NCBI GenBank assembly: GCA_003054655.1
Contig: QAYZ01000016.1
Span: 186,001-250,000 of the forward strand
Length of the DNA: 64,000 nt
Reading direction: 5' to 3'
Source: Spartobacteria bacterium LR76
GTDB taxonomy: Bacteria > Verrucomicrobiota > Verrucomicrobiia > Chthoniobacterales > Terrimicrobiaceae
Part shown: positions 17,844-19,672 of the stretch, piece after piece
How positions within the stretch are numbered: the first letter of the stretch is position 1
Layout: each line of letters begins with the position of its first letter
Made by a program: the position numbers and the translations under genes
The notes under the pieces: model-generated
What the model was told of the DNA's origin: nothing
Database searches by the model: none
What the model saw: the letters and a program-made list of their open reading frames with translations, nothing else

Positions 17844-17961
17844 CGGCGGATCATAGAGAGGTTTGCGAAAAGGATCAACGATTGCGGAGCAGGTTTGACG
17901 GGGGAAATACGGGGTGCGCAAATCCGCTTGCTCCCCGGGAAGCGGGTGTTATGGTGTGCGC

Positions 17962-18039
17962 ATGTCGTTTTCGGAGAATATCGCACTTCTCGCGCTTCGA
18001 CTCGGGTTGCTCCCGAGCCGACTTACTCTCCTTTCTTAA
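17962..18039 (+). CDS. Candidate leucine-rich leader peptide of leuA
   Basis: A 25-codon frame beginning MSFSENIALLALRL and ending in RLTLLS, followed by TAA. Nine of 25 codons are leucine (CTT, CTC or TTG), concentrated in the second half, and a 6-bp hairpin (CTCGGG/CCCGAG) lies inside the leucine run. It ends 82 nt before leuA. This matches the logic of leu operon attenuation, in which ribosome stalling on leucine codons controls downstream RNA folding. I see no clear terminator with a U-run before leuA, so the mechanism is inferred. Confidence 0.5.
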   Translation: MSFSENIALLALRLGLLPSRLTLLS

Positions 18040-18121
18040 AACGGCATAGGCTGCGTTCCCGGCGGGCGTGGTAGGTGCCGCGACCCCTCCCCAATCTTTC
18101 GCCGGACAACCAAACATCCCT

Positions 18122-19672
18122 ATGTCAGACAAAGTTATCATCTTCGACACGACGTTGCGCGACGGCGAGCAGTGCCCCGGCGCCAGCATGAACTTGCGCG
18201 AGAAAATGGAGGTCGCCCGCCAACTCGAGCGACTCAACGTGGACGTGATCGAAGCCGGTTTTCCCGTCATCAGCGACGGAGACTTCGAGGCGGTCGAGAA
18301 GATTGCCACGGAAATCAAAGGCCCCAAAATCTGCGGCCTGGCCCGATGCGTGTCCAAGGACATCGACGCGGCAGGCGCGGCGGTGAAGCCCGCGGGTGAT
18401 CGTGGCCGCATCCACGTCTTCCTGGCGACCTCGGCGATTCATCGCGAGTTCAAGCTGAAGAAGGCGGAGGAGGAGATCATTCGCCTGGCCGTCGAGGGCG
18501 TCACCCGCGCTCGCGGTTTGGTCAAGGATGTCGAGTTCTCGCCCGAGGACGCTTCCCGCACGGAGCCGGAATTCCTGGCCCGCGTGGTGCAGGCGGTCAT
18601 CGAGGCCGGTGCTACGACGGTGAACATTCCGGATACCGTCGGTTTTGCGGTGCCGGACCAGTATGCGTCTTTGATCGGCTATCTGCGCTCCAACGTGCGC
18701 AACATCGACGACGCCATCATCAGCGTGCATTGCCACGATGATTTGGGCCTGGCCGTGGCCAATTCCCTCGCGGCGGTGAAAGCCGGAGCGCGTCAGGTGG
18801 AGGGTACCTTCAACGGCATCGGTGAGCGTGCGGGCAACTGCGCCCTCGAGGAAGTCGTGATGGCGATCAAAACCCGCGGGGATTTTTACGGGGGCCTGCA
18901 CACGGATGTCGTGACTCGCGAGATCCTGAAAACCTCGCGCATCATCAGCCGCATGAGCGGCCTGCATGTCGCGCGCAGCAAGGCCATCGTCGGTGAGAAC
19001 GCCTTTGCCCACAGCTCCGGCATTCACCAGGACGGCATCCTGAAAAAGCGCGAGACCTACGAGATCATGGACCCCGAGGAGGTTGGCTGGGGTGGCACAG
19101 AACTGCCCCTGACCAAGCACAGTGGCAGCCATGCCATGAAGGTGCGCCTGGAGCACCTGGGCTTTCACCTGAGTGACGCGCAAATGAAAGTGGTGTACGA
19201 CCGTTTCAAGGACGTCGGCGACAAGAAGAAGTTTGTGTACGACGACGACCTGGCCGCGCTGGTGGAGGATTCCATGACATCGGACAGCGAGACCTACACG
19301 CTCGACTACATTCACGTCACCAGCGGCAGCACGACGGTGCCAACCGCGACCGTGCGCCTGAAAAAGGGTGGCGAGACTTTGCAGGATTCCAGCCCGGGCA
19401 ATGGAGCGGTCGACGCGGCGATGCAGGCCATTGACCGCATCGTGAAGCGCCATGGTCATCTCGCGCAGTACAGCGTCGAGGCGGTGACGCAGGGGCGTGA
19501 TTCCCTGGGTGAAGTGACGCTGAAGGTGGATTTTGGCAACGGCGACCTGATCACCGGCAAGGGAGCGAGCACCGACGTCATCGAGGCCAGCGCCCGCGCC
19601 TACGTCAATGCGGTCAACCGCACCGAACTGCTCCAGGGCCGCAAAGCCGCCGTCGCCGCCGCTCCGATTTAG
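18122..19672 (+). CDS. leuA: 2-isopropylmalate synthase
   Basis: 516 residues from the ATG at 18122 (MSDKVIIFDTTLRDGEQ); the frame extends upstream but without family similarity. It condenses acetyl-CoA with 2-oxoisovalerate, the first step of leucine synthesis. Signature DTTLRDGEQCPGA at 9-21, the metal-binding HCHDDLG, GIGERAGNCALEE, and HSSGIHQDGILK; a C-terminal allosteric domain from ~385 mediates leucine feedback. No Shine-Dalgarno sequence. Preceded by a leucine-rich leader frame. Confidence 0.95.
   Translation: MSDKVIIFDTTLRDGEQCPGASMNLREKMEVARQLERLNVDVIEAGFPVISDGDFEAVEKIATEIKGPKICGLARCVSKDIDAAGAAVKPAGDRGRIHVFLATSAIHREFKLKKAEEEIIRLAVEGVTRARGLVKDVEFSPEDASRTEPEFLARVVQAVIEAGATTVNIPDTVGFAVPDQYASLIGYLRSNVRNIDDAIISVHCHDDLGLAVANSLAAVKAGARQVEGTFNGIGERAGNCALEEVVMAIKTRGDFYGGLHTDVVTREILKTSRIISRMSGLHVARSKAIVGENAFAHSSGIHQDGILKKRETYEIMDPEEVGWGGTELPLTKHSGSHAMKVRLEHLGFHLSDAQMKVVYDRFKDVGDKKKFVYDDDLAALVEDSMTSDSETYTLDYIHVTSGSTTVPTATVRLKKGGETLQDSSPGNGAVDAAMQAIDRIVKRHGHLAQYSVEAVTQGRDSLGEVTLKVDFGNGDLITGKGASTDVIEASARAYVNAVNRTELLQGRKAAVAAAPI

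Follow-up and report, generated by a model that had tools for sequence, protein, structure and literature searches.

The window, by which we mean the whole stretch of 64,000 nucleotides that was analysed, contains a short leucine-rich open reading frame before leuA, a gene named from sequence similarity and from a preliminary description of this DNA. The divergent neighbours resemble recJ and recG by eye. The features considered here, in which the roles given to the RNA structures are putative, are as follows.

17928-17955, + strand: promoter-like site, TTGCTC (17928-17933), 16 nt, TATGGT (17950-17955), score 6.4
17962-18039, + strand: leader open reading frame, 25 sense codons, nine of them leucine
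17997-18021, + strand: hairpin inside the frame, TCG-A-CTCGGG / CCCGAG-C-CGA, from folding and covariation
18022-18024 and 18028-18033, + strand: likely control codons Leu21, Leu23 and Leu24, within the leader frame
18042-18047, + strand: antiterminator 5' strand, CGGCAT, starting 2 nt after the leader stop codon
18050-18072, + strand: inner antiterminator helix, GCTGCGTTC (18050-18058) / GGGCGTGGT (18064-18072), from folding
18059-18105, + strand: enclosing stem, CCGGCGGG (18059-18066) / TTCGCCGG (18098-18105), a conserved pairing
18067-18082, + strand: terminator-type hairpin, CGTGGT / GCCGCG, then ACCCCTCCCCAATC, without a U-run, from folding and covariation
18075-18080, + strand: antiterminator 3' strand, GTGCCG, common to the terminator-type hairpin
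18122-19672, + strand: leuA, 2-isopropylmalate synthase

The leader frame runs from an ATG at 17962 to a TAA at 18037-18039, encodes the peptide MSFSENIALLALRLGLLPSRLTLLS, and is separated from the leuA ATG (18122) by 82 nt. Its best 12-codon window holds six leucines, a score that 100 rounds of dinucleotide shuffling of the 250 nt 5' of leuA never reached; the reverse strand scored 0. Coordinates, translation and shuffles bear out the preliminary description of a 25-codon frame with nine leucine codons before leuA. The nine codons are four CTT, four CTC and one TTG, with no CTG. Among 220 leucine codons in 26 leaders there were 86 CTT and 19 CTG, compared with 32 CTT and 390 CTG among 772 in the leuA stretches at the same loci (some covering the first 300 nt only); in seven genes of the window CTC was commonest (138 of 278), with 86 CTG and 30 CTT. 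The leaders are thus CTT-rich and CTG-poor in their leucine codons, which we count in favor of leucine attenuation. The folding energy of the whole leader was ordinary (z = -1.34), and the core of the hairpin inside the frame occurred once per genome in the seven genomes searched. A pairing of the leader start with bases after the stop codon was seen in the window's own genus only and was dropped.

The promoter-like site stops 6 nt short of the leader ATG, so that transcription would be expected to start at about 17961-17963. Its score of 6.4 compares with a shuffle mean of 2.8 (sd 2.4, all 26 regions), and it was too weak for a consensus promoter scan. The distance from the end of such a site to the ATG was 4-16 nt in 25 of 26 leaders of the order and in all 14 hand-picked leaders from other families or records, compared with 44-45% of shuffles; mean scores were 6.3 (shuffles, 2.8) in the order and 10.0 (shuffles, 3.3) in the hand-picked set. 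Because the promoter-like site adjoins the leader ATG, its position indicates that the frame is probably leaderless. At three ilvB genes of the genus (L212, L213, L215), a promoter-like TTAAAGT is visible by eye shortly upstream of the first in-frame ATG, a position suggesting that other genes, too, have a short 5' leader or none.

Conservation of the leader and its leucine codons

An ungapped comparison of three genomes of the genus showed 97-99% identity in the leader frame, 99-100% in the spacer from the leader stop to leuA, and 95% in the promoter stretch; leuA was 91-92% identical (80% at third positions in one pair) and the recJ-leader stretch 79-90%. Leader frame and spacer therefore diverge by 0-3%, compared with 8-9% for leuA, and by this measure the spacer behaves like a functional RNA. 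In genus g2, which belongs to the window's family f1, none of 16 genomes searched gave a leuA match at E ≤ 1e-150; they hold only homologs near E 1e-40, suggesting that this leuA was lost or replaced.

In the 250 nt preceding each leuA-like gene of the order, we scored ATG-started frames by the leucine count of their best 12-codon window, using 100 dinucleotide shuffles for each of 60 regions (61 were collected, L041 being too short; one, L046, is a more distant homolog, 53% identical). A leucine-rich frame was significant (p ≤ 0.05) in 33 of the 60, leucine was the sole top residue in 37, and at least five leucines were found on 34 sense strands versus no reverse strand. Regions of the order with no significant frame include most of family f12 and all five of f4, in which leucine-rich frames with start codons other than ATG are visible by eye. 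At the loci of the closest families, f1 and f9, 11 of 12 reached p ≤ 0.05 and the twelfth, L012, p = 0.06; leucine codons are thus conserved in orthologous leaders, and the attenuation that the preliminary description had proposed is not refuted on this point. Outside the order, 29 of 66 leuA upstream regions were significant with 60 shuffles each (56 from the phylum, where 114 of 387 genomes had a match, and 10 from other PVC loci), a few of the 29 (for example L205, and L064, which lies far upstream) resembling the end of the upstream gene rather than a leader. Families f15 and f16 had no significant leucine-rich leader in five regions each. The peptide sequences vary between families and the leucine runs stay. 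In L171, L174, L192, L196 and L197 (families f61, f41 and f43) the peptides end in GDTR/NTRA..GxxCC-type sequences after the leucine run, for example LLLALRGDTRATAGDGCCAG; these are more alike than leucine codons alone demand.

Predicted exclusive folds between the leader and leuA

The antiterminator pairs 18042-18047 with 18075-18080 and thereby excludes the hairpin at 18067-18082. We modeled this choice by letting only the RNA downstream of the ribosome fold, the ribosome being taken to occupy 14 nt counted from the first base of the A site and the transcript ending just beyond the terminator-type hairpin. In the window's own genus, the computed probability of that hairpin was 1.00 with the ribosome at the stop codon, 0.99 at Ser25 and 0.98 at Leu24; at Leu23 and all earlier codons computed, which extended to Gly15, it was 0.00, and the antiterminator reached 0.97-0.99. 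The mutually exclusive antiterminator and terminator of a leader-peptide attenuator are therefore present in the downstream-only model, in which any stall before Leu24, at non-leucine codons included, frees the antiterminator in the window's group. The same model gave the switch in eight of the 11 leaders of this group (L001-L006, L008 and L013, of which L001-L003 are nearly identical). The switch was partial in L007, where moving the ribosome five codons back lowered the terminator from 0.98 to 0.23, largely in favor of a different fold, and in L009 (0.32 to 0.02); L010 had no such terminator-type hairpin. A generic switch score exceeded the shuffle mean in all nine lineages of the group, each singly weak, with 3, 5, 7, 1, 1, 3, 15, 10 and 1 of 30 shuffles reaching it (3 for L001).

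With upstream RNA allowed to pair, there was no consistent switch: it was lost or reversed in L001, and L004, L006 and L013 switched as expected at some late codons. When the full length was folded, the terminator-type hairpin formed at nearly every ribosome position.

The alternative stems that the preliminary description had suggested looking for were found by folding, and they covary across relatives. The outer antiterminator helix was 90.9% paired across the rows of the group, with double changes in three of six pairs (28 of 500 shuffles reach that) and a covariation score of 0.318 compared with a shuffled mean of 0.165, reached by none of 500 shuffles; sliding it by -3 gave a score of 0.297, but only 69.6% pairing. 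The terminator-type hairpin and the hairpin inside the frame were together 97.4% paired, with double changes in three of 14 pairs and a score of 0.218 (reached by two of 500 shuffles), and alignment column 136 could pair in the standard way with either of its exclusive partners in all 11 rows. These double changes go back to a small number of evolutionary events, chiefly the split between f1 and f9 and changes in L005, and the structure was found and counted on the same few, related sequences. The inner antiterminator helix was weak in fixed columns (61.4% paired in its four-pair part). RNAalifold paired the antiterminator strand differently (columns 93-95 with 114-116), a solution that we rejected. 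The antiterminator/terminator pair itself had escaped the preliminary description.

Leaders of f13, a family of the same order, finish in a leucine run (typically LLLLAL-stop) followed by a GATCCG/CGGATC-type hairpin just before leuA. All nine modeled f13 leaders, those of 15 aligned that have this hairpin, showed a switch specific to the leucine run: the terminator had a probability of 0.73-1.00 at the stop codon and no more than 0.11 throughout the run, and in six it was favored again (0.80-1.00) at the codon preceding the run. Six of the nine also pass a terminator scan. In the sister family f9, L013 has the homologous hairpin GGCGTGG/CCACGCC followed by TCTTTTTT, with a U-run. Terminator-like sites were found in 45 of 127 leuA leaders (61 and 66 in the two sets), compared with 4.8 expected from shuffles; some of the 45 fall within the frame (for example in L005 and L015), and none of the 45 comes from the window's own genus. 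In f6, L047 and L049 switched when upstream RNA could pair and did not in the model applied to f13, in which L050 alone of five switched clearly. No switch was found in the eight f5 leaders scored, which did not include L019. In nine leaders modeled from other families, the terminators are very stable and stayed formed at most ribosome positions at equilibrium, so that the equilibrium model neither supports nor refutes a switch there. In f5 (L015-L021, L024 and L039), the start ATGCGC and the in-frame sequence GGGAGTGGCGCCCC are nearly invariant in nucleotides and can pair, a putative conserved structure of a different kind. The leuA leader L019 (genome G072) carries directly after its frame a long, near-perfect inverted repeat, TTAGAGGGTGTGTGAGA...TCTCACACACCCTCTAA, which is missing in its relative L020 and resembles a small inserted element.

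The preliminary description saw no obvious terminator at the window's leader. This holds for consensus terminator scans, which found none on the + strand there, and for the U-run, absent behind the hairpin in all three genomes of the genus, so that the GC-rich hairpin plus U-run of an intrinsic terminator is incomplete here. It does not hold for the hairpin, since the one at 18067-18082 is present and aligns with the terminators of relatives. Around it lies the enclosing stem, paired in 63 of 72 cells over nine sequences (15-48 of 72 in slid versions), counted on hand-anchored arms because the alignment misplaced the outer 3' arm. Its 3' end lies 16 nt before the leuA ATG. In full-length folds of L001 its probability was 0.3 with the ribosome at Leu24, 0.8 at Ser25 and 0.9-1.0 elsewhere. 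With the stem present there almost regardless of where the ribosome is, any decision by this switch would have to come while polymerase is still short of about 18105, a point in favor of control at the level of transcription.

A probable leucine-responsive attenuator and its alternatives

We consider it likely, on support that is computational throughout, that the leuA leader is a leucine-responsive, ribosome-mediated transcription attenuator. The preliminary suggestion of ribosome-mediated attenuation in response to leucine remains the best explanation of a conserved leucine-rich frame and exclusive, covarying stems, and the computed position of the stop codon lets a terminating ribosome mask the switch. 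We infer a leaderless start, ribosome stalling and termination in the following manner. Transcription would start at or next to the leader ATG, and a ribosome would begin on a leaderless or nearly leaderless frame. With ample leucyl-tRNA it would reach the stop codon and cover 18042-18047; the hairpin at 18067-18082 would then form, and transcription would tend to end behind it. With scarce leucyl-tRNA the ribosome would stall at Leu21-Leu23, the antiterminator would form, and polymerase would continue into leuA. The leucine-sensing half of this scheme is well supported by the comparisons; the final off step is not. Stopping at the U-less hairpin might be weakly intrinsic, assisted by NusA/NusG or due to Rho.

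Rho could carry a larger part. The position of the ribosome might gate Rho loading on the C-rich, G-poor tract at 18083-18099, with the hairpins secondary; behind the hairpin the genus has a CCCCTCCCC-like tract and no U-run, and a Rho-dependent variant was proposed, in the part of PMC1262725 available to us, for actinobacterial cys leaders with no terminators. The C-rich tract is short, however, the exclusive stems covary, and close relatives such as L013 keep a T-run at the same place, which makes Rho-dependent attenuation of this kind unlikely. We regard control of translation, in which a stalled ribosome would use the enclosing stem to open or close the leuA start region, as quite improbable. 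The stem is conserved and ends close to the leuA start, but it hardly responds to the ribosome in full-length L001, and no Shine-Dalgarno-like box that it might hide is visible by eye before leuA. Moreover, the openness of the leuA start in L001 was 0.39-0.44 and rose to 0.54-0.60 only with the ribosome at Leu24, Ser25 or the stop codon, the opposite of what leucine control requires; the translation-coupled mechanism that the preliminary description had considered thus gains no support from folding. Marginally less probable still is a frame translated for some other reason, as a small membrane peptide or for reinitiation that boosts leuA, or a relic whose switch is dead for want of a U-run. 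The peptide is hydrophobic, the hairpin of the genus is U-less, and bacterial ribosomes have been suggested to reinitiate at leader genes (PMC4833913, available portion). Against this, the spacer, although non-coding, matches the frame in conservation, which would be unexpected for a relic or a mere peptide, leader stop and leuA start are far apart, and leucine runs persist in peptides that differ between families.

The transcription attenuator that we favor would, in the folding model, work like the classical leu operon leader (Leu_leader, Rfam RF00512): both have a leucine-rich leader frame and an exclusive antiterminator and terminator before leuA. Here, in contrast, the frame is probably leaderless, the genus has no U-run, there is an enclosing stem, no protector stem was seen in the window's group, and no Rfam family matched the sequence. 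Because of the missing U-run we did not file the leader as a full classical attenuator. Rfam searches returned two tRNAs only in the whole 64-kb window and no matches at 13 leader loci; a permissive search of 17900-18200 gave three matches, all far below the gathering score. The actinobacterial LEU element, as described in the accessible text of PMC1262725, likewise has a frame with a leucine run before leuA and no obvious terminator, and the base stem of its pseudoknot pairs the leucine run with the leuA Shine-Dalgarno box; here no such box is seen and the switch pairs strands of the spacer. Attenuator frames at or near the transcript 5' end are described, in the parts of the sources at hand, for Sinorhizobium trpL (PMC7298713) and Corynebacterium ilvBNC (PMC11857589), which are other operons in other phyla; the leaderless start proposed here comes from promoter position. 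The leucine-rich attenuator peptide reported for Staphylococcus aureus (PMC5794164) is a leader peptide in branched-chain amino acid control, in another phylum and compared here by peptide.

According to a 2010 survey, in the portion available (PMC2965389), leader-peptide systems had, as far as its authors knew and apart from ermC, been demonstrated in no phyla other than Proteobacteria and Actinobacteria; the survey itself added Firmicutes. Within the library that we searched, no leader-peptide attenuator published for Verrucomicrobiota came up, and the available parts of PMC11683593 and PMC11611912 report none. At ilvB, L226 was the only one of 17 loci examined by eye (of 30) with a Val/Leu-rich leader (L211 had 63 nt upstream only); at trpE, none of 14 loci had an upstream frame with at least two Trp codons (the automatic start was clearly off for L244 and L253). 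Attenuation is therefore seen at leuA and not shown to be general in the clade. L226, a second ilvB-like gene in genome G054, has by eye a candidate Val/Leu attenuator: the frame MILTGRPVVAFLSGVRLVAVVGSVALADVR, which lies some 184 to 91 nt ahead of the chosen gene start, leads into a GC-rich stretch resembling a hairpin and then eight T.

Tentatively, leucine attenuation of leuA from leaderless frames may be old and Verrucomicrobiota-wide, and this genus may have lost the U-run while its sensing switch stayed under strong selection, stopping now by other means, either Rho or the U-less hairpin together with its enclosing stem. On that view the attenuator would have been caught in the act of exchanging one termination mechanism for another. 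Leucine-rich leuA leaders, probably leaderless and with terminators from textbook to U-less within one order, would form a comparative series for tracing the origin of attenuators and shifts in their stopping device, and the leader would supply a simple leucine-responsive part for Verrucomicrobiota.
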